Shown here: one piece after another, positions 475-22,400 of the stretch
Layout: each line of letters begins with the position of its first letter
Numbering within the stretch: the stretch's first letter is position 1
Assembly (NCBI GenBank): GCA_003153575.1
Contig: PLZW01000005.1
Location: 11,171 to 72,954 of the forward strand
Origin: Acidimicrobiaceae bacterium
GTDB lineage: Bacteria; Actinomycetota; Acidimicrobiia; Acidimicrobiales; RAAP-2
Reading direction: 5' to 3'
DNA length: 61,784 nucleotides
Position numbers and translations under genes: made by a program
Notes under the pieces: model-generated
Database searches by the model: none
What the model was told of the DNA's origin: nothing
Seen by the model: only the letters and a program-made list of their open reading frames with translations

Positions 475-536
475 ATGATCCGGCAGTACAAGGTGGGCGC
501 CCGATGATCCGTCGACGTCAACGGGGTTCCCGATGA
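475..536 (+). other. Two chained 10-codon mini-ORFs leading into the M16 gene
   Basis: ATG475 starts a frame reading MIRQYKVGAR that stops at TGA505-507. That stop overlaps ATG504, whose frame MIRRRQRGSR stops at TGA534-536. The second stop in turn overlaps ATG533 of the peptidase gene. All three starts share ATGATCCG and are spaced exactly 29 bp apart. A purine-rich AGGAAGAGGGG lies just upstream of ATG475, whereas ATG533 has no comparable site of its own. A translational-coupling relay is inferred; a decayed tandem duplication of the start region is the simpler alternative. Confidence 0.45.
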
Positions 537-1789
537 TCCGCACCGATCGGATGCCGTCCGGCCTGACCGTCGTCACCGAGTCGATGGCCGAGGCCCGCTC
601 CGTGTGCATCGGCTTCTGGGTGGGTACCGGCTCGCGCGACGAGTCGCCGGATCTGGCCGGGTCCAGCCACTTCCTCGAGCACCTGCTGTTCAAGGGGACC
701 GAGGCGCGGTCGGCGGCCGCCATCGCCGAAGCCGTGGACGAAGTGGGCGGTGACTTCAACGCCTTCACCACCAAGGAGTACACCTCCTTCTACATCCGGC
801 TCCTCGCCGAGGACGTCGACCTCGGCCTCGACATCCTGTCGGACATCATGTGGCGCCCCTCCCTGCGCGCCGGCGACCTCGACGCCGAACGCCAGGTGAT
901 CCTCGACGAGATCCTGATGCACGCCGACGAGCCGGCCGACCAGTCGGCGGAGCAGAGCTCGGCCATCCTGTTTCCGGGACACCCACTGGGCCGCGAGGTC
1001 CTCGGCACCGAGTTGTCGGTGTCCGACATGACCGCCGAGCGGATCCGGGACTTCTTCGAGGAGCACTACCTGCCGGGCAACATGGTGGTCGCAGTGGCCG
1101 GCGACCTGGACCACGATGTCATCGTGTCCGGGCTCGACGAACGGTCGGGTGGGAGCAAGGGAGGGGAGACGCCGGCTCGGGTGGCACCGGACAACCGGGT
1201 GACCCCCCTGGCGGTGACCCGTCGGTCGACCGAGCAGGCCCATGTGGTCCTCGCCGCCCGATCGGTCGGACGCAACGACCCGAGCCGCTACGCCCTGGCC
1301 GTCCTCAACCACGTCCTGGGCGGCGGGCTGTCGAGCCGCCTCTTCCAGGAGATCCGGGAACGTCGGGGCCTGGCCTACTCGGTGTGGTCCGAGCGGGTCG
1401 CCTACCTCGACGGCGGTTTCCTGAGCGTGGGCCTGGGCACCGGTCCGGAGCACGTGGACGAGGTCCTCGGGATCGTAAGCGACGAGCTCGCGGCGCTGGG
1501 CGCCGACGGGGTGACGGAACGGGAGCTCGTCATCGCGAAGGGCAACCTGCGGGCCGAGACCCTCCTGGCCTGCGAGGATTCGGGAGCCCGGATGAGCCGG
1601 ATCGGCGCCGGCATGCTCCTGCACGGCGAAGTGCTGGCCGTCGACGAGGTGCTCGCCCGGGTGGAGGCGCTTACCCTCGACGACGTCCACGATGCCGCCC
1701 GGGCAGTGGTGGCCGCACCCCGCACCCTATCGGTGGTGGGCTCGTTCGACGAGTCGGACTTCGACGCCGGGGCGCTCGGCCTGGGCTGA
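533..1789 (+). CDS. M16 family zinc peptidase (mitochondrial processing peptidase-like)
   Basis: A 418-residue protein with the inverted zinc motif HFLEH (H46, E49, H50) and a distal glutamate near E126 in QVILDEI, the standard M16 metal ligands. The C-terminal half carries the R/Y-type substrate-binding segment around RERRGLAYSVWSE, as in the peptidasome family. The length fits single-module M16B enzymes (about 420-450 residues). The gene lies between pnp and dapB as in many actinobacteria; its substrate is not known from sequence. The start at ATG533 is chosen because the two mini-ORFs upstream overlap into it and the downstream residues align with family N-termini. It is probably cytoplasmic, with no signal peptide. 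Confidence 0.9.
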   Translation: MIRTDRMPSGLTVVTESMAEARSVCIGFWVGTGSRDESPDLAGSSHFLEHLLFKGTEARSAAAIAEAVDEVGGDFNAFTTKEYTSFYIRLLAEDVDLGLDILSDIMWRPSLRAGDLDAERQVILDEILMHADEPADQSAEQSSAILFPGHPLGREVLGTELSVSDMTAERIRDFFEEHYLPGNMVVAVAGDLDHDVIVSGLDERSGGSKGGETPARVAPDNRVTPLAVTRRSTEQAHVVLAARSVGRNDPSRYALAVLNHVLGGGLSSRLFQEIRERRGLAYSVWSERVAYLDGGFLSVGLGTGPEHVDEVLGIVSDELAALGADGVTERELVIAKGNLRAETLLACEDSGARMSRIGAGMLLHGEVLAVDEVLARVEALTLDDVHDAARAVVAAPRTLSVVGSFDESDFDAGALGLG

Positions 1790-1877
1790 AGATGGAGCCG
1801 GGCCCACTGTTGACGGTGACGTGGCCCGACCACGCGGAACCACAACCTGCGGGACCTTTGGCTGCGGGCGCCTTGGC

Positions 1878-1883
1878 TAGGGT
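1878..1883 (+). promoter_or_regulatory. -10 element (TAGGGT) for dapB
   Basis: TAGGGT ends 7 nt before the dapB ATG at 1891, and no ribosome-binding site lies between. The spacing predicts transcription starting at or next to the start codon (leaderless). No clear -35 is seen. Confidence 0.5.
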
Positions 1884-1890
1884 GACCGGC

Positions 1891-2715
1891 ATGCGAGTCG
1901 CGATCGTCGGTGCTGGTGGGCGGATGGGGCGTGAGGTGTGCCGCACCGTCCTGCAGCGATCCGGCCTCGAACTGGCCGCCGCCGTCGACCCCGGATACGC
2001 AGGGTCTACCGTGGCCGATCTGATCGGCACGTCCGGCCCGCCGTCCGAGGCGGTGGTTGTCTCGGCGGACCTGTCCACACTGACCGACGCGGATGTCGAT
2101 GTGGTCGTCGACTTCACCCACCTCGAGATCTCGAGGGCCACGCTGGCGCACTGCGCGTCGGCCGGGATTCACGCCGTGGTCGGGACCACCGGGTTCACCG
2201 AGGACGACCTCGACGACCTGGCCGAGCTGTTCGCGCCCGGGTCGGCGCACGGCGCCAACTGCATCGTGGCCGCCAACTTCGCCATCGGCGCCGTCCTCAT
2301 GATGCGGTTCGCGGCCCTGGCCGCCCCCTGGTTCGAGAGCGCCGAGATCATCGAGCTCCACCACGAGGCCAAGCGGGACGCCCCGTCGGGCACCTCGCTG
2401 CGCACCGCCGAGGGCATGGTCGCCGCCCGTGCCGCCGCCGGACGGGACGGATTCCTTGCCGACGCCACCTCGACGGTGGTGGTCGAGGGCGCCCGCGGCG
2501 GTGCGGGCCCCGGGGGCATCCGGATGCACTCGGTGCGGCTGCCCGGCCTGGTGGCCCACCAGGAGGTGCTGTTCGGTTCGGCCGGTCAGGGGCTGACGAT
2601 CCGGCACGACTCCTACGACCGGGCCTCGTTCATGGACGGAGTCGTCCTGGCCGTCGAGTCGGTAGCGACGCGACCGGGCCTGACCCTGGGCATCGAGCCC
2701 CTGCTCGGGATCTGA
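1891..2715 (+). CDS. dapB: 4-hydroxy-tetrahydrodipicolinate reductase
   Basis: A cytoplasmic 274-residue enzyme that reduces hydroxy-tetrahydrodipicolinate with NAD(P)H in the DAP/lysine pathway. An N-terminal Rossmann motif VGAGGRMG (residues 6-13) is followed by the family signature ELHHEAKRDAPSGTS (about 155-169), which holds the catalytic His157/His158, Lys161 and the substrate-binding SGT. The start at ATG1891 puts the nucleotide-binding strand at residue 2, as in other DapB proteins, and leaves only 7 nt after a -10 element. The gene follows the M16 gene as in other actinobacteria. dapA, the preceding step, is 2.9 kb downstream, separated by the TetR/diiron genes. Confidence 0.96.
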   Translation: MRVAIVGAGGRMGREVCRTVLQRSGLELAAAVDPGYAGSTVADLIGTSGPPSEAVVVSADLSTLTDADVDVVVDFTHLEISRATLAHCASAGIHAVVGTTGFTEDDLDDLAELFAPGSAHGANCIVAANFAIGAVLMMRFAALAAPWFESAEIIELHHEAKRDAPSGTSLRTAEGMVAARAAAGRDGFLADATSTVVVEGARGGAGPGGIRMHSVRLPGLVAHQEVLFGSAGQGLTIRHDSYDRASFMDGVVLAVESVATRPGLTLGIEPLLGI

Positions 2716-2722
2716 GCGTCGG

Positions 2723-3304
2723 GTGGTGCCGGAAGCCCGCCAGCGGATCGTCGAGGCGACCTACGCGTGCATCGCCCGACGGGGAATCGCCAAGACGACG
2801 GTCGAGGATGTCGCCCGCGAGGCCGGACTGTCCCGGGCCACCGTCTACCGGACCTTCCCGGGGGGGCGGGACGAATTGGTCGACGCCACCGTCGCCTGGG
2901 CGACCTTCGACTTCTTCGCCAAGCTCTACGACCGGATCCAGGGCGCGGCGAGTCTCGAGGAGGTCATGGAACGGGGGATCATGTTCGCCCACCGCTCCAT
3001 CCTCGAGCACGAGGTGCTGCAGCGGGTGATGCAGACCGAACCGGACAAGCTGCTGCCCGCGCTCACCGTCGAGAGCAACCGCATACGCGCCGGTATCGCC
3101 GATGTGCTCGCCCCCTACCTTGTCGACCGGGGCCTGGCCCAGGGTGTCGACCTCCGGGACGCTGCCGACTTCCTGGCCCGGATGGTCCTCTCGTACATCT
3201 CGGCGCCCGGCCGTTGGGACCTGGAAGACCCTGAACAGGTGGCCCGCCTGGTCCGCTCGGAACTCCTGGCCGGAGTAGTCGTCCCGGCCGCCGGCAGGCG
3301 CTGA
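2723..3304 (+). CDS. TetR-family regulator (first of a tandem pair)
   Basis: A 193-residue protein with an N-terminal TetR helix-turn-helix at about residues 6-50 (RIVEATYACIARRGI, then TTVEDVAREAGLSRATVYR). The GTG start lies 7 nt after dapB. The next gene encodes a paralogue whose DNA-binding domain shares most of these residues, including KTTVxDxARExG and RATVYRxFPGGRDE. The C-terminal ligand domain (about 55-190) is less similar between the two. The target is probably the pair itself and the diiron gene at 4265 (inference from position). The effector is unknown. Confidence 0.85.
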   Translation: MVPEARQRIVEATYACIARRGIAKTTVEDVAREAGLSRATVYRTFPGGRDELVDATVAWATFDFFAKLYDRIQGAASLEEVMERGIMFAHRSILEHEVLQRVMQTEPDKLLPALTVESNRIRAGIADVLAPYLVDRGLAQGVDLRDAADFLARMVLSYISAPGRWDLEDPEQVARLVRSELLAGVVVPAAGRR

Positions 3305-3392
3305 CCTGCTGCGGCCGGGTGCCGTCTTGGCCGAAGCCGCCTAATGCCGGTCGGAGTCCGGGGCGGGCGGAGTGGTCGGGCAGGCACAGTGG

Positions 3393-3422
3393 TTGACGCT
3401 GAAACAAATCCTGACGTACTGT
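3393..3422 (+). promoter_or_regulatory. Promoter for second TetR gene
   Basis: TTGACG (3393-3398) and TACTGT (3417-3422) are 18 bp apart. The start codon GTG3430 lies 7 nt after the -10, so the transcript should be leaderless. The segment also contains repeated TGACG (3394-3398 and 3412-3416), a possible regulator half-site. Confidence 0.6.
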
Positions 3423-3429
3423 TCCAGGC

Positions 3430-4185
3430 GTGGCACGATCGCATGGGGAACTCCGGGTGGTTGACGAAGACACCGTCGTGCCCCTGGTCGCCCCTGCCCT
3501 GTCCGGTCCGGCTGCCTCCGAACGGTCCGACCAGTCGCCCCATCGGGTGCGCATCATCGACGGAACCTTGGCGTGCCTGGCCCGCCACGGCTCCGCCAAG
3601 ACCACCGTCGACGACATCGCCCGGGAGTCGGGAGTGTCCCGGGCCACCGTGTATCGGGCGTTTCCGGGGGGTCGGGACGAGATCCTGGGTGCCGTGGTCG
3701 ACACCGAGATGGCACGGCTGTTCAGCGCCCTGGGCGTCCGGTTGGGCAACGCCGACGATCTCGGCACGGCGCTCGTCGGCGGGATCGTGGTGGCCTCCAC
3801 CCGGCTGCGCGACCACGTCGCCCTCCACTTCCTCGTGGAACACGAGCCCGGGATCATCCTGGGCCACCTCGCCTTCGCCGACTCCGATCGCCTGCTGTCC
3901 ATCGCCTCGAAGTTCACGGCACCGTTCCTGGCCCGCTGGATGAGCCCCGACGAGGCCGAGCGGGTCGCCGAGTGGGCCGCCCGGATCGTCCTCTCGTATG
4001 CCATCGCGCCCTCGACCCATCTCGACCCCTGCGACGAGGCCGACGCCACCCGACTGGTGACGACGTTCATGCTGCCGGGAATCGAGGCACTTCGGTCGGC
4101 GGCGTCCGGTCCCATCGACATCACGCCGTACCCGGCGGACGGACCCGCGGTCGACCCCGGTGAGGAGCCGGTCACCGCTTCCTGA
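3430..4185 (+). CDS. TetR-family regulator (second of a tandem pair)
   Basis: A 251-residue regulator with a roughly 38-residue N-terminal extension before the TetR helix-turn-helix (RIIDGTLACLARHGS, TTVDDIARESGVSRATVYR). It is longer than its upstream neighbour, mainly through this extension and a C-terminal tail. It has its own promoter. The gene ends 79 bp before a diiron ferritin-like gene on the same strand, an arrangement that suggests local control. An alternative start inside the extension cannot be excluded, but the promoter spacing supports GTG3430. Confidence 0.83.
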   Translation: MARSHGELRVVDEDTVVPLVAPALSGPAASERSDQSPHRVRIIDGTLACLARHGSAKTTVDDIARESGVSRATVYRAFPGGRDEILGAVVDTEMARLFSALGVRLGNADDLGTALVGGIVVASTRLRDHVALHFLVEHEPGIILGHLAFADSDRLLSIASKFTAPFLARWMSPDEAERVAEWAARIVLSYAIAPSTHLDPCDEADATRLVTTFMLPGIEALRSAASGPIDITPYPADGPAVDPGEEPVTAS

Positions 4186-4264
4186 ACGATTCCCGACGTT
4201 GCCGCCGCATCGCCGAGCAACCAACCGTCATCCACCACACTCGCACCACAAGGGGGACACCGAC

Positions 4265-5398: not shown

Positions 5399-5423
5399 CC
5401 GCGGGGAGTCTCGATGCGGACCC

Positions 5424-5543
5424 CGGCGACGGGTGCCGGGTAATCGGCGGCCGGGTCGCCACCCGACGAACGGTGACGGGAGGCGGCGACGGGTGCCGGG
5501 TAATCGGTGGCCGGGTCGCCACCCGACGGACGGTGACGGGAGC
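5424..5543 (+). repeat. Two-copy 60-bp tandem repeat upstream of dapA
   Basis: Copies at 5424-5483 and 5484-5543 are nearly identical, with only a few mismatches. Each carries a small hairpin, CGGGT-CGCC-ACCCG (5452-5465 and 5512-5525). The repeat sits between the diiron gene and the dapA leader. The function is unknown: it may be part of the diiron 3' end, an operator pair, or a neutral duplication. Confidence 0.85.
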
Positions 5544-5576
5544 CGCGGCCCCGGCGGCGGGCATCGTAGCTGCTGG

Positions 5577-5582
5577 TAGCCT
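5577..5582 (+). promoter_or_regulatory. -10 element (TAGCCT) for the dapA leader
   Basis: TAGCCT ends 8 nt before GTG5591, the start of a 13-codon leader frame that overlaps dapA. The same hexamer precedes ftsK, queF and nrdR in this window. Confidence 0.5.
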
Positions 5583-5590
5583 GCGATTCT

Positions 5591-5632
5591 GTGAGCCCTT
5601 CCCGCACTGACGCCTACCGGACCGGACGATGA
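5591..5632 (+). other. 13-codon leader ORF overlapping dapA
   Basis: GTG5591 opens a frame MSPSRTDAYRTGR that stops at TGA5630-5632. The stop overlaps the dapA ATG at 5629 (ATGA). It begins 8 nt after a -10 element, so ribosomes loading on a near-leaderless transcript would translate it first and could reinitiate at dapA. dapA itself has no convincing ribosome-binding site. It contains no run of Lys or Asp codons, so classic attenuation is not indicated. Confidence 0.4.
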
Positions 5633-6543
5633 CCACCCCCCGATTCGGCAAGGTGGTGACCGCCATGGTGACCCCGTTCGGCCCCGAGGGCGAGCTCGAC
5701 CTCGACGCCGCGGCGGTCGTGGCCCGTCAACTGGCCGACACCGGCAGCGAGGGCATCGTCGTGGCCGGGAGCACCGGCGAGGGTCCCGTGCTCACCGACG
5801 CCGAGCGCATCTCGCTGTTCCGGGCGGTCATCGAAGCCGTCACCATCCCGGTGATCGCCACCTCGGGCACCAACGACACAGCCCACTCGATCCTGATGAC
5901 CGAAGAGGCCGAAGCCGCCGGCGCGGCGGGTGTCCTCGTCGTCACCCCGTACTACAACCGCCCATCAGCTGCCGGACTGTCCGCCCACTTCCGGGCGGTT
6001 GCCGGCGCGACCGGTCTGCCTGTCGTCATGTACGACATTCCGGTGCGGTCGGGACGCCGGATCGGGCCGGAGCTCACGGTGCAGCTCGCCCGCGACGTCG
6101 GGAACATCGTGGCCGTCAAGGACGCCACCGGGGACGTGCCGGCTGCGGCCCAGGTCATCGCCGAGGCACCCGCCGGTTTCGAGGTCTATTCGGGCGACGA
6201 CTCCATGACCTTGCCGTTTGCCTCGGTGGGCGGCGTCGGGGTCATCAGCGTGGCCGCCCACTGGGCCGCCCCGCTGTTCACCGAGATGCTCACCGCCTTT
6301 GCGAGCGGCGACGTGGCACGTGCCGCAGAGCTCAATCGCGGCCTGCTCGAGTCCTACCGGTTCGAGTCCTCCGACGAATACCCCAACCCGGTGCCGGTCA
6401 AGGCGGCCTGCCGTGCCATGGGATTGGCCGTCGGCCAGTGCCGGCTGCCCAACGCCCCGGCGCCGCAGTCGCTCGACGACCAGGCCCGGTCGGTCGTGGC
6501 CGGCGCCGCCTCCCTGATCCAATCCTGGCACTCCGTTGCCTGA
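5629..6543 (+). CDS. dapA: 4-hydroxy-tetrahydrodipicolinate synthase
   Basis: A 304-residue TIM-barrel aldolase that condenses pyruvate with aspartate semialdehyde, the first committed step to DAP and lysine. The Schiff-base lysine is K164 in AVKDATGD. The catalytic triad region appears as S48-T49 (AGSTGEG, where TTGE is usual), Y109 (YYNRP) and Y135 (MYDIP). R140 in PVRSG matches the substrate-binding arginine. The Thr-to-Ser change at residue 48 keeps the hydroxyl. The length is normal. The gene overlaps a leader ORF upstream and the RNase J start downstream, so the three are likely co-transcribed. Confidence 0.95.
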   Translation: MTTPRFGKVVTAMVTPFGPEGELDLDAAAVVARQLADTGSEGIVVAGSTGEGPVLTDAERISLFRAVIEAVTIPVIATSGTNDTAHSILMTEEAEAAGAAGVLVVTPYYNRPSAAGLSAHFRAVAGATGLPVVMYDIPVRSGRRIGPELTVQLARDVGNIVAVKDATGDVPAAAQVIAEAPAGFEVYSGDDSMTLPFASVGGVGVISVAAHWAAPLFTEMLTAFASGDVARAAELNRGLLESYRFESSDEYPNPVPVKAACRAMGLAVGQCRLPNAPAPQSLDDQARSVVAGAASLIQSWHSVA

Positions 6544-11093: not shown

Positions 11094-12614
11094 ATGACCA
11101 CGACAGACGAGGGGCCTGCCGCGTCGGGTCCCCAGGTGCAACTCGCCGAGGACGCCGGTCGGCGCGGTCGCCGGCGGGGTACGGGACACCGGCACGCCGC
11201 CAGCCACCGTCGCCGGCGATGGCCGTGGGTCGTCGTCGCCGTGGGCGTCCTCCTGGTCGGCGCCGCCGGCTGGGCGGCCGCGGCGCGGATCAACGCCCCG
11301 TTGGCCAAGGCCTACCCGCACGCCGCCGTCACGGCCGCCACCGTCGTCCCCGGAGGTCCACCAGCCCTCCCGTGGCCGTCCAAGGGCCAAGGGGCCGTGG
11401 TCGTCCCGTCGATCGGGTACAGCGCCCAGTCGGGCCTGGAGGGCCCGGTGCCGATCGCCTCCCTGACCAAGCTCACCACGGCGGTGGTGATCCTGCGTGA
11501 CCACCCGGTCCCGGCGGGCGCCCAGGGGCCGACCATCACGTTGACGTCCGACGACGCGGCCGAGTACCAGGCGGAGCTGCACCTCGACGAGTCGAGCATC
11601 CCCATCCAGGCGGGCGAGAACCTCAGTGAACGCCAGATGCTCGAGGCACTCCTGACCCAGTCGGCCAACGACATCGCCTACAGCCTGGCCGTCTGGGACG
11701 CCGGATCGGTCGACGCCTTCGTGGTCAAGATGAATGCGCTGGCCGCCTCGCTCGGGGCCACGGCCACCCACTACGTGGATGCCAGTGGCTTCGACCCGCA
11801 CTCGGTGTCGTCGGCGGCCGATGTCCTGAAGGTGGCGGCGGCCGGCATGTCCATCCCCACCTTCGCCGAGATCGTGGCGCTCCCGAAGGTGACCCTCCCG
11901 CTGGTCGGCACGTTGAACAACATCGTCACCGAGGTCGGCACCGGTGGGGTGATCGGGATCAAGTCCGGTTACACCTCCGACGCCGGCGCCTGCATGGTGC
12001 TGGCCGCCGACCGGATCATCCAGGGCCGCCAGGTGTTGGTGATCGTCGATGTCCTCGGGCAACCCACGCCGCCGCCCACCTTGCCCAAGCCGACGCCGAC
12101 CACCACCACGACCACCACCACGACCACCACGACACCCCCGACACCGGGTGCACCAGGGGCACCACCGCCCCCGCCGACCACCACCACGACCACCACGACC
12201 CGACCGCCGCCGACCACCACGACGACGTCGATTCCGCTCAAGGATCTCCCCATCGCCGACCCGTTCAAATTCACCCGACCGGTAGTCGAGCCCCTCTTGG
12301 CGGCCACCCAGGCGGCGATCATCCCGGTGACGGTGGCGAAGACCGGTGCCGCGTCAGGCACGGTGACGGCCACCTGGGGAGGTCGATCACATTCGGCTTC
12401 CTATGTCACCGCCGCGGGCGCATGGCTGCCGGGCTGGCCGGGCCAACAGGTCAGGTCCATCACCAAGTTCGTGTCCGTACCCCCGGGCAGTGCGTCAGGG
12501 ACCCAGGTGGGTACATCGCTCTACGCCATCGGCTCCGAGTTCGAGGCCGTCCCGCTCCGCCTGGCCCAGGCCGTGCCCGAACCGTCGATGTGGTGGAGGC
12601 TCCGGCACAGCTGA
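11094..12614 (+). CDS. D-alanyl-D-alanine carboxypeptidase (PBP5-type serine peptidase)
   Basis: A 506-residue envelope protein with a basic cytoplasmic tail, one membrane segment (about 46-64) and an extracytoplasmic serine peptidase S11 domain. Active-site motifs are S123-L-T-K126, S190-A-N192 and K290-S-G in place of KTG, which is common in D-Ala-D-Ala carboxypeptidases. Residues 324-379 form a Pro/Thr linker (long Thr runs), followed by a C-terminal domain of about 125 residues not recognised. Likely role: trimming peptidoglycan pentapeptides. It follows ftsK by 27 bp and ends before thrB, which has its own promoter. Confidence 0.88.
   Translation: MTTTDEGPAASGPQVQLAEDAGRRGRRRGTGHRHAASHRRRRWPWVVVAVGVLLVGAAGWAAAARINAPLAKAYPHAAVTAATVVPGGPPALPWPSKGQGAVVVPSIGYSAQSGLEGPVPIASLTKLTTAVVILRDHPVPAGAQGPTITLTSDDAAEYQAELHLDESSIPIQAGENLSERQMLEALLTQSANDIAYSLAVWDAGSVDAFVVKMNALAASLGATATHYVDASGFDPHSVSSAADVLKVAAAGMSIPTFAEIVALPKVTLPLVGTLNNIVTEVGTGGVIGIKSGYTSDAGACMVLAADRIIQGRQVLVIVDVLGQPTPPPTLPKPTPTTTTTTTTTTTTPPTPGAPGAPPPPPTTTTTTTTRPPPTTTTTSIPLKDLPIADPFKFTRPVVEPLLAATQAAIIPVTVAKTGAASGTVTATWGGRSHSASYVTAAGAWLPGWPGQQVRSITKFVSVPPGSASGTQVGTSLYAIGSEFEAVPLRLAQAVPEPSMWWRLRHS
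12063..12230 (+). repeat. Thr/Pro low-complexity linker coded by ACC/ACG runs
   Basis: Two blocks of near-perfect ACC/ACG triplets encode poly-Thr stretches flanking a Gly/Pro segment inside the carboxypeptidase gene. It probably forms an extended, possibly glycosylated, spacer across the wall. Length changes in whole triplets would keep the frame. Confidence 0.8.
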
Positions 12615-15469: not shown

Positions 15470-15505
15470 GTGGCCATCGTTGCCGGGGGTTGTGACACGG
15501 GGCCG

Positions 15506-15511
15506 TATCCT
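15506..15511 (+). promoter_or_regulatory. -10 element (TATCCT) for the miaB leader
   Basis: TATCCT ends 7 nt before GTG15519, the start of a 34-codon leader ORF. It sits in the 50-bp divergent gap shared with the HNH gene. Confidence 0.5.
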
Positions 15512-15518
15512 GGTCCGG

Positions 15519-15623
15519 GTGAGCTTCCATGCGGGGACCGATATCCAAGTGGGGCCGACGTCCATGCGGGGACCGACGGGAGCGGGCGCGCCAATTCCGG
15601 CGCGCCCGACCGCGCCCAGATGA
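15519..15623 (+). other. 34-codon leader ORF overlapping miaB
   Basis: GTG15519 begins VSFHAGTDIQVG and runs to TGA15621-15623, which overlaps the miaB ATG at 15620. It starts 7 nt after a -10 element, like the dapA leader. It contains a 16-bp direct repeat (15526-15541 and 15561-15576). miaB has no clear ribosome-binding site, so coupling through this frame is plausible. It could also simply be untranslated leader. Confidence 0.4.
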
Positions 15624-17026
15624 CGCCACGGACCTTCCACATCCGGACCTTCGGTTGCCAGATGAACGAGCACGACTCGGAACGCCTGGCCGGCGCCCTG
15701 GTGGCCGACGGTCTGGTGGCGACGGACGACATGGAGTCGGCCGACGTGGTGGTGTTCAACACCTGCTGCATCCGGGAGAACGCCGACAACAAGTTCTACG
15801 GCCACCTGGGAAACCTCAAGACCCTGCGGGAGAGCCGGCCGGACATGCAGATCGCCGTGGGCGGGTGCCTGGCGCAGATGGACAAGGAGAAGATCCAGGA
15901 GCGGGCGGGGCACGTGGACGTGGTGTTCGGGACGCACAACCTCACGAATGCTCCGGAGTTGCTGCGGCGGGCCTCCGCCGAAGGTCCCCTCATGGAGATC
16001 CTGGACGAGCCGGCCCCGTTCGGGGAGCCCACCGCCGCCGACCAGCAGATGGCGGCACTGGCTGCGGTGCGGGACCTGCCCTACGCGGCATGGGTGACCA
16101 TCCAGATGGGGTGCGACAACAGCTGTGCCTACTGCATCGTCCCCGCTGTGCGTGGTCCCGAGGTGTCCCGCCCGGTGGACGACCTGGTGGCCGAAGTGGC
16201 GGAGCTGTCCCGACGTGGCGTGACCGAAGTCACCCTGCTCGGCCAGAACGTGAACTCCTACGGTCGGGACATAACGAGACGCCGCCCGCTCTTCGGTGAC
16301 CTGCTGCGGGCCGTGGGCAGTGTCAACGGGATCCGGCGGGTCCGGTTCACCAGTCCGCACCCGAAGGACCTCCGCCCGGAGGTGATCGCCGCCATGGCCG
16401 ATACACCGGAGGTGTGCAACCACCTCCACCTCCCCCTCCAGTCGGGGAGCGACGCCATGCTGACCGCTATGCGCCGGGGATACACCGCCGACCGGTACCT
16501 CGATCGGCTGGCCGCGGCACGGGCCGCCGTCGACGACCTGGCCGTGACCACCGACCTCATCGTCGGCTTCCCCGGTGAGACCGAGGACGACTTCGAGCGC
16601 ACCCTGGAGGTGGCGGCCGAGGCCGAGTTCGACAGCGCCTACACCTTCGTCTTCTCCCCCAGGCCCGGCACCCGGGCCGCGGCCATGGAGGACCGGTTCC
16701 TGGCGGTCGAAGTCACCGCCGAGCGCATGGAGCGGCTGCGCGCCGTCGTCGAGCGTTCGGCACTGCGCAAGCACGCCGCCCGAGTGGGGCGGGTCGAAGA
16801 GGTCGTCGTGGAGGGACCGTCCAAGCGCGATCCGTCGGTGACCACCGGCCGGACGGGGCAGAACAAGCTGGTCCACTTCGCTACCGGGGAGGGACGAGCA
16901 GTCGCCGGTGGCAGCTTCGCGCGGGTGTCGGTGACCGCGGCCGCACGCCACCACCTGACCGGTGACCTGGTCGAGGTGACCGCCCGCCCGTCGCACCGGG
17001 TGCGCATCCCCGTCTCCGCCGGCTGA
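15620..17026 (+). CDS. miaB: tRNA-2-methylthio-N6-isopentenyladenosine synthase
   Basis: A 468-residue radical-SAM methylthiotransferase acting on i6A37 of tRNA. The N-terminal MTTase domain has cluster cysteines C13 (FGCQMNEHDSE), C49 (NTCCIREN) and C83 (GGCLAQ). The radical-SAM cluster is C165-X3-C169-X2-C172 (CDNSCAYCIVP). The C-terminus carries a TRAM domain from about residue 400 (GQNKLVHF, GDLVEVTA). The start ATG15620 gives the standard TFHIRTFGCQMNEHDSE N-terminus. miaA, which makes its substrate, follows after 4 nt, so the two are an operon. Confidence 0.96.
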   Translation: MTPRTFHIRTFGCQMNEHDSERLAGALVADGLVATDDMESADVVVFNTCCIRENADNKFYGHLGNLKTLRESRPDMQIAVGGCLAQMDKEKIQERAGHVDVVFGTHNLTNAPELLRRASAEGPLMEILDEPAPFGEPTAADQQMAALAAVRDLPYAAWVTIQMGCDNSCAYCIVPAVRGPEVSRPVDDLVAEVAELSRRGVTEVTLLGQNVNSYGRDITRRRPLFGDLLRAVGSVNGIRRVRFTSPHPKDLRPEVIAAMADTPEVCNHLHLPLQSGSDAMLTAMRRGYTADRYLDRLAAARAAVDDLAVTTDLIVGFPGETEDDFERTLEVAAEAEFDSAYTFVFSPRPGTRAAAMEDRFLAVEVTAERMERLRAVVERSALRKHAARVGRVEEVVVEGPSKRDPSVTTGRTGQNKLVHFATGEGRAVAGGSFARVSVTAAARHHLTGDLVEVTARPSHRVRIPVSAG

Positions 17027-17030
17027 ACGG

Positions 17031-17984
17031 ATGGCTGTCGCCCTGGTCGGGCCCACGGCATCGGGCAAGTCCGAGATCGCCCTGGCGGTGGCCCGGGCCT
17101 GTCCGGGAGCCGTCGAACTGGTGTCGGTGGACTCCATGGCCGTCTACCGGGGCATGGACATCGGCACGGCCAAACCGACCCGTGCCGTGCGGGCCGAGGT
17201 GCCCTACCACTTGGTCGACCTGGTGGATCCGGACGAGGAGTACACGGTCACCCGCTTCCAGGAGGCGGCGCGCGCCGCCCTGGAGGGGATCGCAGCCCGG
17301 GGATCGACCGCGCTGTTGGTGGGAGGCACCGGTCTGTACCTGCGGGCGGTCACCGACGATCTGTCCTTCCCGGGTAGGTATCCGTCGGTGGCGGCCGACC
17401 TGGCGGCCGAGCTCGACCGGGCGGGACCGGAAGGGAGCGACGGGCGCCTGGCCGGCTGTGCCGTACTGCACGCCAGGCTCGAGAGCCTGGACCCGGTGGC
17501 CGCGTCGCGGATCGAACCGGGGAACGAGCGCCGCCTGGTCAGAGCCCTGGAGGTGACGCTCGGCTCGGGACGACCGTTCTCGTCGTTCGGGTCGGGGCTG
17601 GAGCAGTATCCGCCGAGCCGGTTCGCCCTGGTCGGCATGGATCGCGGGGCCGAGGAGTCGGAGGGACGGATCGCCAGCCGATTCGTCCGCCTGATGGACG
17701 AGGGGCTCCTCGAAGAGGTGCGCGGACTGGCCGCCCGACCCGGCGGGCTGTCGAGGACGGCCCGCCAGGCCCTCGGCTACCGGGAACTGCTGGCCCATGT
17801 CGAGGACGGGACGCCCCTGGCGGACGCGGTGGACGAGGCGGTCCGACGGACGCGGGCCTTCGCCAAGCGCCAACGGGCGTGGTTCCGGCGGGACCCGCGC
17901 ATCGAGTGGATCGACCCCGACAGCGATCCGGTGGCGGCGGTGCTCGAGCACCTGGAGCGGGACGCAGGGACGTCGCACCGGTGA
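17031..17984 (+). CDS. miaA: tRNA dimethylallyltransferase
   Basis: A 317-residue enzyme that adds the dimethylallyl group to A37 of UNN-decoding tRNAs, supplying the substrate of MiaB upstream. The P-loop GPTASGKS lies at residues 7-14. VDSMAVYRGMDIGTAKPT and GGTGLYLRAVTDDL are family blocks, and RTRAFAKRQRAWFRRD is the tRNA-binding segment. The stop overlaps a GTG that opens an 8-codon relay frame into dapF. Confidence 0.96.
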   Translation: MAVALVGPTASGKSEIALAVARACPGAVELVSVDSMAVYRGMDIGTAKPTRAVRAEVPYHLVDLVDPDEEYTVTRFQEAARAALEGIAARGSTALLVGGTGLYLRAVTDDLSFPGRYPSVAADLAAELDRAGPEGSDGRLAGCAVLHARLESLDPVAASRIEPGNERRLVRALEVTLGSGRPFSSFGSGLEQYPPSRFALVGMDRGAEESEGRIASRFVRLMDEGLLEEVRGLAARPGGLSRTARQALGYRELLAHVEDGTPLADAVDEAVRRTRAFAKRQRAWFRRDPRIEWIDPDSDPVAAVLEHLERDAGTSHR

Positions 17985-18007
17985 GAGACTGTGGGGGATC
18001 GCCATGA
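17981..18007 (+). other. 8-codon relay ORF between miaA and dapF
   Basis: GTG17981 overlaps the miaA stop (GTGA). It reads VRDCGGSP and stops at TGA18005-18007, which overlaps the dapF ATG at 18004 (ATGA). The frame therefore bridges the whole gap, and it also contains GGGGGAT, which could serve as the dapF ribosome-binding site. Translation of the frame is untested. Confidence 0.35.
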
Positions 18008-18864
18008 CCACGACCGCCGCCGACAGCACCTTCCTCCGGTTCACTAAGCACCACGGTGCCGGCAACGACTTCCTGGTCCTCATCGACCCGGACGGGGCCA
18101 ACCCTCTGTCGCCCGACCTCGTCCGGGCGCTGTGCGACCGCCACTTCGGGGTAGGCGCGGACGGGGTGATCCGGGTGCTGGCCGGTGGCGACCAGGCCGA
18201 CCTGGTCATGGTCCTGCAGAACGCCGACGGCAGTGAGGCCGAGATGAGCGGCAACGGCATGCGCTGTCTGGCCCAGGCCGCCGTGCAGAGCGCGCTGGTG
18301 GCCCCGCCGACCTTCACCGTGGCCACCGGTGGCGGCGTCAGGATAGTCGCCTACGCCCAGGGTGGCGACCCAGACACCGCCTGGGCGACCGTCAGCATGG
18401 GCCGGGCCGAACTCGGCGAGAACCAGCCGCAGAAGTTCGGCGACCGCAAGGTACGGACCGTCGATATGGGCAATCCCCATCTGGTGATGTTCGGCCCCGA
18501 CCTGGACGACGTGGACGTCGCCGGCATCGGCGCCCACCTCCAGACCGTCTACGAGGGCGGCGTGAACGTCGAGTTCATCACGACGGGGGACGAGCCCGAC
18601 CACCTGGTGCTCCGGGTGTTCGAGCGGGGCGTGGGTGAGACCCAGGCGTGCGGCACCGGCAGCGCCGCCGCGGCCGCCGCCGCCCACAGCTGGGGCCTGG
18701 TCGGTCGGAACGTCGCCGTCCACAACCCGGGAGGCACCCTCGAGGTGAACCTCGACGACGACGAGATCCTCCTGGCGGGGCCGGTGCACCGGGTGGCTTC
18801 CGTGGTGGTGAGCCCGAGCGGCGTGCTCGCCGGATCGAGGCCGCAGATGAGCCCTACCGCATGA
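18004..18864 (+). CDS. dapF: Diaminopimelate epimerase
   Basis: A 286-residue cofactor-independent racemase converting LL-DAP to meso-DAP. The two catalytic cysteines are C88 (SGNGMRC) and C216 (ETQACGTGS), each in its family signature. N-terminal KHHGAGNDFLV and GVGADG are typical. The last six residues QMSPTA come from a short repeat shared with the hflX start (MSPT), so the very C-terminus looks like a product of local duplication. GGGGGAT precedes ATG18004. Confidence 0.96.
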   Translation: MTTTAADSTFLRFTKHHGAGNDFLVLIDPDGANPLSPDLVRALCDRHFGVGADGVIRVLAGGDQADLVMVLQNADGSEAEMSGNGMRCLAQAAVQSALVAPPTFTVATGGGVRIVAYAQGGDPDTAWATVSMGRAELGENQPQKFGDRKVRTVDMGNPHLVMFGPDLDDVDVAGIGAHLQTVYEGGVNVEFITTGDEPDHLVLRVFERGVGETQACGTGSAAAAAAAHSWGLVGRNVAVHNPGGTLEVNLDDDEILLAGPVHRVASVVVSPSGVLAGSRPQMSPTA

Positions 18865-18898
18865 TGATGAGCCCCACCGCATGAGCCGGAGCTCATGA
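18861..18898 (+). other. Two chained mini-ORFs between dapF and hflX
   Basis: The dapF stop overlaps ATG18861 (MMMSPTA, stop 18882-18884), that stop overlaps ATG18881 (MSRSS, stop 18896-18898), and that stop overlaps the hflX ATG at 18895. All three junctions are ATGA. ATGAGCCCYACC occurs three times (18847, 18867, 18895), showing that the region arose by duplication of a start segment. Confidence 0.45.
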
Positions 18899-20205
18899 GC
18901 CCCACCACGTCGGCCTTCACCGACACCCTGATCTCGAGGGAGTTCCGGGAGCGCATCGTCCTCGTAGGGGTCACCTTCCCCCACGGCACCACAGCTGCCA
19001 CCGAGGCCGGGCTGGACGAGTTGGAACGGCTGGTGGACACCGCCGGCGCCGACGTGGTCGGGCGGACCATCCAGCGTCGGACGGCGCCGGACTCGGCGAC
19101 CTACGTCGGCCGAGGCAAGGCGGAGGAGCTGCTGGCTATGTGCCTGGAGGTGGACGCCGACACCGTGGTGTTCGACGACGACCTCGCGCCGGCACAGCAG
19201 CGCAACCTGGAGAAGATCCTCGGCCGGACGGCCATCGACCGCACCGCCGTGATCCTCGACATCTTCGCCCAGAATGCGCGCACCCCCGAAGGCCGCGCCC
19301 AGGTGGAGCTGGCCCTGCTGCGCTACCGGCTGCCGCGCCTGCGTGGCCGGGGACACACGCTGAGCCAACAGGCGGGTGGGATCGGCACGAGGGGTCCCGG
19401 TGAGACCCAGCTCGAGGTGGACCGCCGGCGCCTGGTGGCGCGCATGACCCGGTTGGAGGCCGACCTGCGCCAACTCGACCGCACCAGGCAGGTCCAGCGC
19501 CGGGGGCGCCAGCGGGGACGGCAACGCACCGTGTCCCTGGTGGGGTACACCAACGCCGGGAAGTCGACGCTGCTGAACCGCCTGTGCGAGGCCGACGTCC
19601 TGGTCGAGAACCGCCTCTTTTCGACCCTCGACCCGAGGACCCGGAAGTTCGACCTGCCGGGCGGCGAGACGGTCCTGCTCACCGACACGGTCGGCTTCGT
19701 CCGCAAGTTGCCCCACCAGGTGGTGGAGGCGTTCCGGTCGACCCTCGAAGTGGTGCTCGAGTCCGACCTCATCGTCCACGTGGTCGACGGTTCCGCACCC
19801 GACCTCGAGGGCCAGATCGACGCCGTACACACCGTGCTCACCGAGATCGGGGCCGACACCATGCCCGAACTGCTGGTCGTGAACAAGGCCGACGCCCTCG
19901 GGACCGGCGACGACGCCACCGGCGAGGAGGCCCGGCGCCTGCTGGCCGCCCATCCGGGGTCGGTGCTGATATCGGCACGGACGGGACAGGGGATGGATGA
20001 ACTCCTCGTCACCATCGGCGACCGTCTGCGGGTGGGGGACCGGGTGGTCGAGCTCGAGATCCCGTGGGCCCGCGGCGATGTGCTGGCCGCCGTCCATCGT
20101 GAGGGGGAGATCGTCGGCGAGGAGGCCGGTGACACCGCGACCCGGGTTCACGTGGTCCTCGACGAGGCGGGCAAGGCGCGGTTCGCGGAGTTCCTGGCCT
20201 CGTGA
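18895..20205 (+). CDS. hflX: GTPase HflX
   Basis: A 436-residue ribosome-associated GTPase that splits or rescues stalled ribosomes under stress. The N-terminal nucleotide-binding HflX domain includes ATYVGRGKAEEL and ILDIFAQNARTPEGRAQVELA. The G domain has G1 GYTNAGKST (217-225), G3 DTVGF and G4 NKAD. A basic helical linker RRGRQRGRQR precedes G1. The start is at ATG18895, overlapping an upstream mini-ORF; the stop overlaps the dapC GTG. In other actinobacteria hflX also follows dapF. Confidence 0.95.
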   Translation: MSPTTSAFTDTLISREFRERIVLVGVTFPHGTTAATEAGLDELERLVDTAGADVVGRTIQRRTAPDSATYVGRGKAEELLAMCLEVDADTVVFDDDLAPAQQRNLEKILGRTAIDRTAVILDIFAQNARTPEGRAQVELALLRYRLPRLRGRGHTLSQQAGGIGTRGPGETQLEVDRRRLVARMTRLEADLRQLDRTRQVQRRGRQRGRQRTVSLVGYTNAGKSTLLNRLCEADVLVENRLFSTLDPRTRKFDLPGGETVLLTDTVGFVRKLPHQVVEAFRSTLEVVLESDLIVHVVDGSAPDLEGQIDAVHTVLTEIGADTMPELLVVNKADALGTGDDATGEEARRLLAAHPGSVLISARTGQGMDELLVTIGDRLRVGDRVVELEIPWARGDVLAAVHREGEIVGEEAGDTATRVHVVLDEAGKARFAEFLAS

Positions 20206-21353
20206 GTTCGGACGATCCCGTCTCGGTCGGTTTTGCCCCTCCGCCTTACCCGTACGAGCGGCTGAACGGCGCCAAGGCCCGGGCCGCCGAGCGGTTCGCG
20301 GCAAGGGGAGGACTGGTCGACTGCTCCATCGGCACTCCATACGATGCTCCACCGGACGCCGTCCTGGCGGCGATGGCCACGTCGGGGACGGAGCGGGGCT
20401 ACCCGACGTCGCCCGGATCGCCAGCCTATCGGCAGGCCGCGGCCGGGTGGATCGCACGGCGATTCGGGGTGACGGTGGACCCCGAGGGCGAAGTGGCGGC
20501 GTGCGTGGGCACCAAGGAGTTCGTGGCCTCGACCGCCCAGTTCCTCCGGTTGCGGACGCCCGACCGGGACACCGTGCTCTACCCGTCGGTGTCCTACCCG
20601 ACCTACGCCATGGGAGCGACGTTGGCCGGCGCCCGGGCGGTTCCGGTCCCCGAGCTGACGGGGGGTGGACTCGACCTCGACGCCGTGGACCCGGCCGACG
20701 CCGCCCGTGCCCTGCTCATCTGGGTCAACTCACCGTCCAACCCGACCGGCCGATTGAGCGACCTGGAGCGGGTGGGGGAGTGGGGTCGGGAGCGCGGGAT
20801 ACCCGTGCTGTCCGACGAGTGCTACGCCGAGTTCACCTGGGACGGGCCGGCCCGGACGATCCTCGAGTGGGGCATCGATGGGGTCGTGGCCGTGCACTCG
20901 CTGTCGAAGCGGTCCAACTTGGCCGGGGTGCGGGCGGGCTTCTACGCCGGCGACCCCGAACTGGTGTCCTACCTTCTCGACGTCCGCCGTCATGCCGGAC
21001 TGATGGTGCCGGGACCGGTGCAGGCGGGTGCCGTGGTGGCCCTCGACGACGACGCCCACGTGGAGGCGCAGCGCCTCCGCTACGAGGAGCGGCTCGCGTT
21101 CCTGGCCGCGGCACTCGGCGATGCCGGGCTCCCGGTGCAGCCACCCTCCGGCGGCTTCTACCTCTGGGTACCGGTGCCGGTCCGGTTCAGCGACGACTGG
21201 GCCCTGTGTGCGTGGCTGGCAGACGAGGTTGGGCTGCTGGTCAGTCCCGGCGAACTCTACGGCCCGGACGGGTCCGGGCACGTCCGGGTGGCAGTGGTGC
21301 AGCCGATGGACCGGCTGACGCTGGTGGCCGAGCGCCTGTCGTCCGCACGTTGA
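20202..21353 (+). CDS. dapC: Succinyldiaminopimelate aminotransferase (class I/II PLP enzyme)
   Basis: A 383-residue fold-type I aminotransferase. The PLP lysine is K236 in HSLSKRSNLAG; NSPSNPTG (176-183) and SDECYAEF (204-211) bind the cofactor. The sequence alone would support several class I aminotransferases, but it lies directly before dapD and dapE, so succinyl-DAP transamination is the best call and matches the DapC arrangement of actinobacteria. The GTG start overlaps the hflX stop by 4 nt. Confidence 0.88.
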   Translation: MSSDDPVSVGFAPPPYPYERLNGAKARAAERFAARGGLVDCSIGTPYDAPPDAVLAAMATSGTERGYPTSPGSPAYRQAAAGWIARRFGVTVDPEGEVAACVGTKEFVASTAQFLRLRTPDRDTVLYPSVSYPTYAMGATLAGARAVPVPELTGGGLDLDAVDPADAARALLIWVNSPSNPTGRLSDLERVGEWGRERGIPVLSDECYAEFTWDGPARTILEWGIDGVVAVHSLSKRSNLAGVRAGFYAGDPELVSYLLDVRRHAGLMVPGPVQAGAVVALDDDAHVEAQRLRYEERLAFLAAALGDAGLPVQPPSGGFYLWVPVPVRFSDDWALCAWLADEVGLLVSPGELYGPDGSGHVRVAVVQPMDRLTLVAERLSSAR

Positions 21354-21476
21354 GGCGCGACTCCCGGCTGAGGGCACGAAGGCGATGACGGCGTCGGAGG
21401 TGATGAAGGGTCGTGGGCGATGAACGGGTCGTGCGCCGTCGCCGGGCGGGCAGGGGCGCTGTGGGCCGGGCGGTAA
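21350..21476 (+). other. Chain of mini-ORFs between dapC and dapD
   Basis: TTG21350 overlaps the dapC stop and reads 12 codons to a stop overlapping ATG21385. That frame (MTASEVMKGRGR) ends in a stop overlapping ATG21420, whose frame runs 18 codons to TAA21474-21476. The three starts are each 35 bp apart. The chain ends 11 nt before the dapD ATG, within its -10 element. The TTG link is weak; the two later starts are the stronger part. Confidence 0.3.
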
Positions 21477-21479
21477 CGT
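21474..21479 (+). promoter_or_regulatory. -10 element (TAACGT) for dapD
   Basis: TAACGT ends 8 nt before ATG21488, with only a C-run between and no ribosome-binding site. This is an internal promoter giving a near-leaderless dapD message. Confidence 0.45.
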
Positions 21480-21487
21480 CTCCCCCC

Positions 21488-22366
21488 ATGGCAGAACCCG
21501 CGACCGACGCAACCCCACTCCCATCAACGCACTCCGTGCACGCCGAGCTCGCCGACCGGGTCGAGTCGTTGTGGGATCGGGCGACGGAGCTGTCGGCCGC
21601 TGATGCCGACGCGCTCGAGGTGGTGACGGAGGCCATCGACCTGCTCGACTCCGGCGTGGCCCGGATTGCCGAGATCGACCCGACCACCGACCGTGTGATC
21701 GTCCACCAGTGGCTCAAGCACGCCATTCTCCTACTCTTCCGGCTGCGATCGATGGAGACCATCGAGGTCGGCCCGTTCGAGTTCGCCGACAAGATCCCGC
21801 TCAAGCGCGACTACGAGGCGGCCGGGGTCCGAGTCGTCCCCGGAGCATCGGCACGCTGGGGTTCGTACCTCGCCCCCGGGGTCATCTGTATGCCCAGCTA
21901 CGTCAACATCGGGGCCCGCGTGGGTGCCGGCACCATGGTCGACACATGGGCGACCGTCGGGTCGTGCGCCCAGATCGGCGAGAACGTCCACCTGTCCGGC
22001 GGTGTCGGCATCGGCGGCGTGCTGGAGCCGGCCCAGGCCGCGCCGGTGATCATCGAGGACGAGGTCATGATCGGGAGCCGCTGCATGATCACCCAGGGTG
22101 CCCGCGTGGGCCGCGGCTCGGTGGTGGGGGAGGGGACCATCCTCAACCCCTCGATCCCGGTCATCGACGCCGAGACCGGTGACGAGCTCGGTCGGGGCCA
22201 TGTGCCGCCGTGGTCGGTCGCCGTGCAGGCGTCCCGGCGACGGGAGTTCGCGGGGGGCGAGTTCTACCTTCCTTGCGTCCTGATCCTGAAGCGGCTGACC
22301 GAGGGGCAGCGCCACGACAAGGCCCAGCTCAACGACATCCTCCGGACCCACGGGGTGTCGACATGA
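21488..22366 (+). CDS. dapD: Tetrahydrodipicolinate N-succinyltransferase
   Basis: A 292-residue left-handed beta-helix acyltransferase that adds succinyl to tetrahydrodipicolinate. The hexapeptide-repeat region spans about residues 120-225 (GVICMPSYVNIGARVGAGTMVDTWATVGSC and onward in short [LIV]GxxxxI turns), flanked by an N-terminal helical domain and the conserved LKRDYEAAGVRVVPG-type lead-in. ATG21488 is chosen over GTG21413 because the upstream part has poor coding character and overlaps the -10. The stop overlaps the first of two mini-ORFs leading to dapE. Confidence 0.92.
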   Translation: MAEPATDATPLPSTHSVHAELADRVESLWDRATELSAADADALEVVTEAIDLLDSGVARIAEIDPTTDRVIVHQWLKHAILLLFRLRSMETIEVGPFEFADKIPLKRDYEAAGVRVVPGASARWGSYLAPGVICMPSYVNIGARVGAGTMVDTWATVGSCAQIGENVHLSGGVGIGGVLEPAQAAPVIIEDEVMIGSRCMITQGARVGRGSVVGEGTILNPSIPVIDAETGDELGRGHVPPWSVAVQASRRREFAGGEFYLPCVLILKRLTEGQRHDKAQLNDILRTHGVST

Positions 22367-22400
22367 ACGGGGTGTCGACATGAACGGCCTCCGGCGGTGA
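22363..22400 (+). other. Two chained 6-codon mini-ORFs between dapD and dapE
   Basis: The dapD stop overlaps ATG22363 (MNGVST, stop 22381-22383). That stop overlaps ATG22380 (MNGLRR, stop 22398-22400), which in turn overlaps the dapE GTG at 22397. Starts are exactly 17 bp apart, and CGGGGTGTCGACATGAA is duplicated. MNGVST repeats the GVST C-terminus of DapD in another frame. Confidence 0.45.

Follow-up and report, generated by a model that had tools for sequence, protein, structure and literature searches.

Why should the gaps between neighbouring genes be crossed by tiny reading frames, each of which stops on the start of the next? This arrangement recurs in the window, the 61,784-nt stretch of DNA analysed here, whose host is an uncultured soil actinobacterium with a 70% GC genome.

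Mini-ORFs connect genes through NTGA overlaps

The first-pass annotation had listed five junctions joined by NTGA-linked mini-ORFs. Four of them carry complete bridges (PNPase-M16, miaA-dapF, dapF-hflX and dapD-dapE; table 1), with an NTGA stop/start overlap at each link, while the chain at dapC-dapD runs into a dead end. All steps are indeed 2 modulo 3, but this is automatic because each frame ends on NTGA. The M16 chain, described with steps of 29+29, proved longer than claimed: TTG 344 overlaps the PNPase stop, and the full bridge measures 131+29+29. A single mini-ORF links miaA to dapF (step 23), and the two-step chains reported at dapF-hflX (20+14) and dapD-dapE (17+17) are present in the letters. 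The equal steps at dapD-dapE result from a 17-bp tandem repeat and the hflX steps from a degenerate 14-bp array. Those at M16 perhaps also stem from a repeat, as neighbouring 29-bp copies are identical at 17/29 positions (best unrelated offset, 14).

The dapC-dapD chain exists with its 35+35 steps, in which no repeat is visible, but the frame opened at 21420 runs into a TAA and therefore falls short of dapD. This TAA overlaps the -10-like box of dapD, and TANNNT lies 5-10 nt upstream of the dapD ATG in 11/12 genomes (the exception being G033). The dead end and the promoter-like box together rule out this junction as a relay.

The single leader ORFs ending in ATGA that had been assigned to dapA and miaB were recovered, with start-to-start distances of 38 and 101 nt. 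TANNNT boxes stand 7-8 nt upstream of both leader starts, a spacing that would fit leaderless transcription, and both leaders are short ORFs terminated by RTGA, as in the coupled leaderless ORFs of the mycobacterial type. Within the miaB leader, a 15-bp sequence at 15527 recurs as a direct repeat at 15562, a spacing of 35.

Table 1. Features of the bridged junctions and leader ORFs, in window coordinates.
Feature	Position	Strand	Details and basis
PNPase gene, 3' end	1..347	+	frame 3, ...GGRGGRRRR, TGA 345-347; translation; N gap just upstream of window
Mini-ORF 1, PNPase-M16	344..478	+	TTG 344 to TGA 476-478; crosses strong predicted hairpin (fold)
Mini-ORF 2, PNPase-M16	475..507	+	ATG 475 to TGA 505-507; letters
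Mini-ORF 3, PNPase-M16	504..536	+	ATG 504 to TGA 534-536, overlaps M16 ATG 533; letters
M16 peptidase	533..1789	+	Pfam PF00675, PF05193
TAGCCT, -10-like box	5577..5582	+	8 nt before dapA leader start; arrangement kept in 12/12 genomes (TAACCT in G007)
dapA leader ORF	5591..5632	+	leaderless-type, 13 codons, GTG 5591, ends on dapA ATGA 5629
dapA	5629..6543	+	Pfam PF00701
TATCCT, -10-like box	15506..15511	+	7 nt before miaB leader start
miaB leader ORF	15519..15623	+	GTG 15519 to TGA 15621-15623, on miaB ATG 15620
miaB	15620..17026	+	Pfam PF00919, PF04055
miaA	17031..17984	+	Pfam PF01715
Mini-ORF, miaA-dapF	17981..18007	+	VRDCGGSP, ends on dapF ATGA; like MiaA tail VRDCGVTP of G010
dapF	18004..18864	+	Pfam PF01678
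Degenerate 14-bp array	18847..18908	+	units begin ATGAGCC at 18847, 18867, 18881, 18895
Mini-ORF 1, dapF-hflX	18861..18884	+	
Mini-ORF 2, dapF-hflX	18881..18898	+	
hflX	18895..20205	+	Pfam PF13167, PF16360, PF01926
dapC-dapD chain	21350..21476	+	TTG 21350, ATG 21385, ATG 21420; dead end TAA 21474-21476
TAACGT, -10-like box	21474..21479	+	8 nt before dapD ATG 21488
dapD	21488..22366	+	likely start ATG 21488; Pfam PF14805
Mini-ORF 1, dapD-dapE	22363..22383	+	MNGVST, product of 17-bp tandem repeat
Mini-ORF 2, dapD-dapE	22380..22400	+	MNGLRR, ends on dapE GTG 22397
dapE	22397..23479	+	Pfam PF01546, PF07687

Bridged gaps exceed chance by a moderate margin

Pooled over the genome and its relatives, with the window region and its orthologous stretches excluded, complete bridges cross 29 of 39 eligible gapped junctions, against 17.1±3.0 for swapped real gaps (0/1000 swaps reach 29). 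This pool omits the congeners G001, G006, G007, G009, G010 and G013 whole, plus single contigs of others, and relatives are counted without regard to kinship and are non-independent. When orthologous stretches of distant relatives were included, 33/44 junctions were bridged. Chains of at least two mini-ORFs occur at 18/137 junctions (7.3±2.6 expected from swapped gaps; 1/500 reach this value). In the own genome alone, sampled over 771 kb (26% of the genome) and with the region excluded, 10/14 junctions are bridged against 6.0 (28/1000 swaps reach). Junctions near N were excluded from the pooled and region-free own-genome swap tests, and gene starts are simple in-house calls throughout. The observed counts also lie above 200 shuffles, so a count no higher than in shuffled sequence, the outcome against which the first-pass annotation had set its reading, is not what these samples gave. 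Bridging is moderately above chance across the genome, as judged from the 26% sample; since the excess is only about 1.7-fold, any one bridge may be chance.

Reading phase was biased in the same direction. Where an out-of-frame start has an open frame up to an NTGA start, the linking phase is preferred in the own genome (56 vs 23), in the genus set (59 vs 8) and in the far set (23 vs 4); before non-NTGA starts the genus set shows some excess as well (70 vs 40). The own PNPase-M16 pair entered the phase, 200-shuffle, looser own-genome swap, start-context and Shine-Dalgarno counts with a wrong upstream stop. Nulls with 1-2-nt indels were conditioned on intact relays and therefore support no claim. 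Shine-Dalgarno-like 5-mers precede 10-21% of starts (21% at direct overlaps) compared with 4-6% in shuffled sequence, so other initiation is possible, and TANNNT boxes precede 18-22% of divergent genes or genes behind 51-150-nt gaps, compared with 1-2%.

Bridges, direct overlaps and peptides among relatives

The PNPase-M16 junction is bridged in 13 of the 15 relatives called gapped behind a start-overlapping stop, across gaps of 30-226 nt; the remaining two read as direct overlaps and run in frame into M16. In some relatives the bridge survives most random indels in the spacer (a fraction of 0.80 in G000 and of 0.86 in G005), and such spacers hence test little. Outside the lineage, 80 named loci gave 64 without a bridge, 9 partial, 4 direct as called and 2 without PNPase. 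The one complete bridge among them, L212, is probably from the same genome as G012, and at 14/73 partial or unbridged loci an in-frame upstream start would yield a direct overlap. In 12/12 genomes a leaderless-type leader ORF has its stop between -4 and +7 nt relative to dapA (5.1/12 already expected in shuffled sequence with phase left unchanged); it overlaps dapA in six and ends 4-7 nt before it in the other six. Direct overlap is found at hflX in 19/30 relatives and at dapE in 9/12 genomes, where the bridges of G000, G005 and G006 were read from frames; the automatic start choice skips them. Bridges are missing at hflX in G018 and G057 and at miaA-dapF in G006.

The mini-ORFs have a median length of 10 codons and a flat GC content by codon position (0.67/0.70/0.74). 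They lack gene-like codon composition, and therefore the NTGA linkage, rather than the peptide, seems to be kept. On this flat profile, conserved small proteins were rejected as candidates. Start contexts are similar at 11/20 positions or more in 9/91 relay steps, against 2.6 expected; at 13/20 or more only two steps remain, inside the null range, which ruled out start-site duplication as a general origin. Duplication accounts for only a minority of relay steps. Other origins were observed as well: the C-terminal tail of miaA was severed, an N-terminal extension of MiaB was frameshifted (a start matching the miaB leader GTG is in frame with MiaB in 11/11 other readable genomes), and spacers were inserted. 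Both earlier ideas, that the frames tune coupling and that they record start duplications kept because they preserve it, are supported in part.

Serial reinitiation as a probable explanation

We consider it probable that the mini-ORFs are stepping stones for ribosomes, crossed by repeated termination and reinitiation at NTGA tetramers; initiation at the intermediate starts is the part that we infer. A ribosome finishing the upstream gene at NTGA would reinitiate on the overlapping start, translate the short frame, stop at the next NTGA and restart, until it reached the next gene. Every tetramer would be one hand-over at -4 spacing, and a spacer beyond the range of direct coupling would therefore remain coupled. 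Coupling disappears at a spacing of about 20-38 nt (PMC10666635), and an AUGA uORF is reported to drive its gene through termination-reinitiation (PMC11260477). A relay could arise when duplication, frameshift, premature stop or insertion parts a directly overlapping pair and the new frame ends on NTGA; a leaderless start separated from its gene could be a second starting point. Relays that preserve coupling would survive more often than others, under a putative selection through coupling. This model builds on the layout of the junctions, the surplus of bridges relative to swapped gaps, the 13 genomes with a PNPase-M16 bridge across gaps of varied length, the kept dapA leader and the direct overlaps in relatives.

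Chance is an unlikely alternative, although at 70% GC TGA is a common stop, NTG is frequent, stops are rare and frames ending on NTGA arise freely. Swapped gaps often carry bridges (12.4/43 in a looser own-genome test), and the dapC-dapD chain, with its automatic steps, is of this kind. Against chance, the pooled count exceeds all 1000 swaps, a further count exceeds 200 shuffles, a phase control does not reproduce the bias before NTGA starts, and each of the 13 relatives whose PNPase-M16 gap is genuine and follows a start-overlapping stop has a bridge. It is rather less likely still that the downstream genes initiate by themselves, through Shine-Dalgarno or leaderless starts, with incidental mini-ORFs and with NTGA starts that reflect selection favouring A in the fourth position. 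Such enrichment is reported for bacteria (PMC5850271), many starts carry the signals counted above and dapD is such a gene, yet the phase of the upstream frames does not follow from fourth-site A, and the bias lies mainly before NTGA starts.

Slightly behind this we place small protein genes that escaped annotation, are conserved because of their peptides and overlap their neighbours at -4 by coincidence. Small genes are common in operons and some bridge frames are long (up to 76 codons at PNPase-M16 in G005), but the composition and shortness of the mini-ORFs speak against them, and the PNPase-M16 and dapA peptides vary widely in length and sequence among genomes. Most improbable is the insertion, at start codons, of MIRU-like mobile repeats that each carry a coupled ORF. 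Their architecture and outcome, as reviewed, are identical (PMC12548453), but BLAST of seven spacers against the 771 kb returned only partial matches of 17-64 bp, which ruled out a dispersed spacer, and 208 gap sequences have a single 22-bp match in common.

If serial reinitiation works, translational coupling cannot be read from gap length alone, and a simple cis role that needs no functional peptide would exist for many of the short ORFs that go unannotated in high-GC genomes. Relays would also provide a way of tolerating frameshifts and duplications where genes end, and they would allow a clean test of the ability of ribosomes to reinitiate twice or three times in succession. More tentatively, and with some doubt, we propose that NTGA relays are an indel buffer for operons, in which serial reinitiation over peptide-indifferent mini-ORFs re-couples separated pairs. 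Gap length would then be free to drift while the ribosome hand-over is preserved, and PNPase-M16 would be a multi-step relay maintained across much of the genus.

Comparison with known systems

Termination-reinitiation at ATGA/TGATG gene overlaps, as described, has the same 4-nt stop/start overlap and needs very short spacing (PMC6728339, PMC10666635). Its partners are genes, whereas here one to three non-coding mini-ORFs lie between them, in gaps of up to 226 nt. The uPPE2 uORF, with its AUGA overlap, was shown experimentally to deliver ribosomes by reinitiation from one translated mini-ORF (PMC11260477), but the reported case is a single step in a riboswitch leader, without a chain. In the bicistronic design a short ORF likewise brings ribosomes to a gene of interest, although this is engineered and, as outlined in the review, has one step (PMC12548453).

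The single hand-over is known, and the multi-step version and its ways of arising look new. Tandem MIRUs occur between genes. According to a 2025 review, MIRU insertions contain an ORF whose coupling to the next gene is at -4, the same link as here, and are tolerated because of this coupling (PMC12548453); MIRUs are dispersed repeats, in contrast to the spacers studied here, for which 771 kb of the genome yielded no complete dispersed copy. Mycobacterial leaderless small ORFs coupled by RTGA (PMC4633059) resemble the dapA and miaB leaders in their leaderless-type start, RTGA link, kept place and changing peptide, while the ORFs described here also occur in series, between genes inside operons and in another actinobacterial lineage. 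The first-pass statement that repeated intermediate mini-ORFs were not known to be described was thus too strong, given these two published types. The nearest known cases, both from mycobacteria, are single leader ORFs coupled to their gene and the insertion of MIRUs.

Mini-ORF bridges in the window and its relatives

The window belongs to a draft genome of 2.98 Mb (43 contigs, ~70% GC, 76% complete by the tool's figure). Its Pfam-supported genes encode an M16 peptidase, dapB, dapA, a miaB-type and a miaA-type protein, dapF, an hflX-type protein, an aminotransferase, dapD and an M20 peptidase; names finer than the Pfam family are our assumption, and we take the aminotransferase to be dapC and the M20 peptidase to be dapE. 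The M16 protein has its best named match in L212 (87% identity), an assembly from a bog metagenome that carries the label Acidimicrobiaceae. A run of threonine and proline codons lies at 12090-12235, within the gene at 11094-12614. Just upstream of window position 1, an N run splits the PNPase gene (L092, the contig locus, about 11,150-11,170); a QGKVSLSL-type stretch occurs on either side with differing continuations, and the run looks like a scaffolding seam.

The first-pass annotation had described chains of tiny ORFs (minis) linking the upstream stop to the downstream start through NTGA overlaps at five junctions. Four chains were recovered, while the fifth, dapC-dapD, is not a relay because it stops at a TAA inside the dapD -10-like box, which is kept in 11 of 12 genomes. 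This TANNNT box lies 5-10 nt upstream of the dapD ATG (window 21470-21490 and orthologues) and is, judged by its sequence, a clean case of a putative leaderless-type promoter within the dap operon. The single leader ORFs also described for dapA and miaB are both present, each terminating on the gene start and preceded by a -10-like box at the spacing expected of a leaderless transcript.

Mini-ORF bridges in the window
Bridge	Starts	Strand	Basis
PNPase-M16	TTG 344, ATG 475, ATG 504, M16 ATG 533	+	read from sequence
miaA-dapF	GTG 17981, ATG 18004	+	read from sequence
dapF-hflX	ATG 18861, 18881, 18895	+	read from sequence
dapD-dapE	ATG 22363, ATG 22380, GTG 22397	+	read from sequence

Comparison with sister genomes, which had been suggested as a check, revealed bridges at PNPase-M16 in 13 of 30 genomes with the M16 locus; 8 had a direct overlap, 4 were part-bridged, with the PNPase stop not within a start codon, 3 had no chain and 2 no PNPase in reach. 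Where the PNPase stop overlapped a start and the junction was called gapped, 13 of 15 were bridged. In the other two (genomes G026 and G016) the overlapping start's frame continues in frame into M16, and these are therefore direct overlaps. A further bridged genome (G009) was left out of the count as PNPase was not anchorable there. Gaps span 30 to 226 nt and bridges contain one to three minis. The window's own genome (G000) has steps of 131+29+29 nt between successive starts, of which the locus survey showed the last only, owing to the N gap; a strong hairpin is predicted within the first bridging frame. The 226-nt spacer of G005 (L036) contains 24-nt repeat units (gtgctgggcgaaacgtccggccat); units of this length preserve the frame. 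In named actinobacteria outside the lineage this junction is a direct overlap or plain gap.

Bridges exceed chance expectation

Genes were called by a simple dicodon scorer, so starts are approximate. The proposed genome-wide count was made on genome samples, using same-strand gaps of 0-150 nt against 200 dinucleotide shuffles, and mini chains were above shuffled in all samples. The 771-kb sample of the window's genome (own; 226 gaps) gave 13 complete bridges versus 8.5±1.1 (0/200 shuffles reaching 13) and 12 chains of at least two minis versus 3.2±1.6 (0/200). The corresponding values were 23 versus 13.3±1.8 (0/200) and 10 versus 2.7±1.6 (0/200) in the genus set (211 gaps), and 8 versus 5.5±1.0 (1/200) and 4 versus 1.0±0.9 (2/200) in the far set of relatives (124 gaps). 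With ATG as sole start the own excess was nearly gone (3 full bridges versus 2.1; 29/200).

A stricter null swapped real gap sequences of similar length, discarding in-frame outcomes because the gene caller would read them as direct overlaps. Bridged junctions then numbered 13/17 versus 7.7±2.0 in own (4/1000 swaps reaching the observed value) and 10/14 versus 6.0±1.8 (28/1000) after removal of the finding region, where bridges were first noticed. The pool without this region and orthologous stretches gave 29/39 versus 17.1±3.0 (0/1000), or 24/32 versus 13.6±2.7 (1/1000) with ATG and GTG only; the far part alone gave 4/5 versus 1.8±1.0 (39/1000). Chains of at least two minis numbered 11/77 versus 5.9±2.2 in own minus the finding region (12/500) and 18/137 versus 7.3±2.6 in the pool (1/500). 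When the downstream start could float among in-frame candidates, 19/43 were bridged versus 12.4±2.8 in own (5/200) and 51/100 versus 28.6±4.1 in 13 other genomes (0/200). Upstream ATG/GTG frames open to an NTGA start were in the linking versus the other out-of-frame phase at 56/23 (own), 59/8 (genus) and 23/4 (far), compared with 44/44, 70/40 and 25/31 before non-NTGA starts. The excess over chance is real and moderate; any single bridge may well be accidental.

Origins of the relays

Relay origins at dapD-dapE, dapF-hflX, miaA-dapF, miaB and dapA are what we infer from a tree-free comparison of genomes. At dapD-dapE, 9 of 12 readable genomes have direct NTGA overlaps, and the three gapped ones (G000, G006, G010) are all bridged by frame reading; the window's 34 additional bases begin with an exact 17-bp repeat. 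The dapF-hflX junction (30 genomes) has 19 direct overlaps, 4 other overlaps, 2 gaps called without a bridge (G018, G057) and 5 bridges, with steps of 20+14 (G000), 17+17 (G010), 95+14 (G012), 11+11 (G021) and 38 (G026). At miaA-dapF, G000 and G012 are bridged, G006 has an identical gap broken by an early stop, and remaining genomes have direct overlaps or other spacings. The mini VRDCGGSP resembles the tail VRDCGVTP in G010, where the tail still terminates on ATGA. GAGACTG immediately upstream of dapF (17980-18003 and orthologues) occurs in most congeners despite changing reading frame, a possible signal.

The region upstream of miaB was compared in genomes where it is readable, with boxes picked from seven hexamers. 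In all the other genomes so compared (11 of 11), the leaderless-type start shares its frame with MiaB. In the window the extension is shifted into another frame, which terminates precisely on the miaB ATGA; the window's leader has a 15-bp repeat at 35-bp spacing (at best 22/35 identical) that points to a putative duplication. For dapA, box, start and leader ORF are present in 12 of 12 genomes, the leader stopping -4 to +7 nt from dapA and by overlap with it in 6 of 12; eight leaders have exactly 13 codons, their sequences differing. Two near-identical ~65-bp copies (cggcgacgggtgccgggtaatcgg...) lie upstream of dapA at 5401-5560.

Possible mechanism and known systems

A gene sharing AUGA with its uORF was driven mainly by termination-reinitiation in the system described in PMC11260477. 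In the reporters described in PMC10666635, a spacing of 22 nt abolished reinitiation in H. volcanii, and one of 38 nt cut it by 80-100% in E. coli. Since published reinitiation collapses by 22-38 nt, two genes separated by 20-230 nt should be uncoupled unless ribosomes translate the intervening gap right up to the following start. Minis would let ribosomes translate across the gap as far as that start, keeping the pair coupled, with initiation proposed at every intermediate start. GC by codon position is 0.67/0.70/0.74 in minis (1363 interior codons, 91 minis, 70 relays), unlike the window's long ORFs (about 0.7/0.5/0.9). Action in cis, not via a kept peptide, fits the data. Shine-Dalgarno-like 5-mers precede 10-21% of starts versus 4-6% in shuffled sequence; for TANNNT boxes, counted before gapped and divergent starts, the figures are 10-22% versus 1-2%. 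Several initiation modes therefore coexist.

We recognised no description of serial minis bridging operon gaps, or of their genome-wide excess, in the open-licence literature, older and subscription work falling mostly outside this scope, and this absence is weak evidence of novelty. MIRUs, as described in PMC12548453, are a known example of an inserted spacer carrying a coupled ORF. The dapA and miaB leaders, with their predicted leaderless transcripts, resemble the leaderless, RTGA-coupled small ORFs described for mycobacteria in PMC4633059, whose position is kept while the peptide varies.
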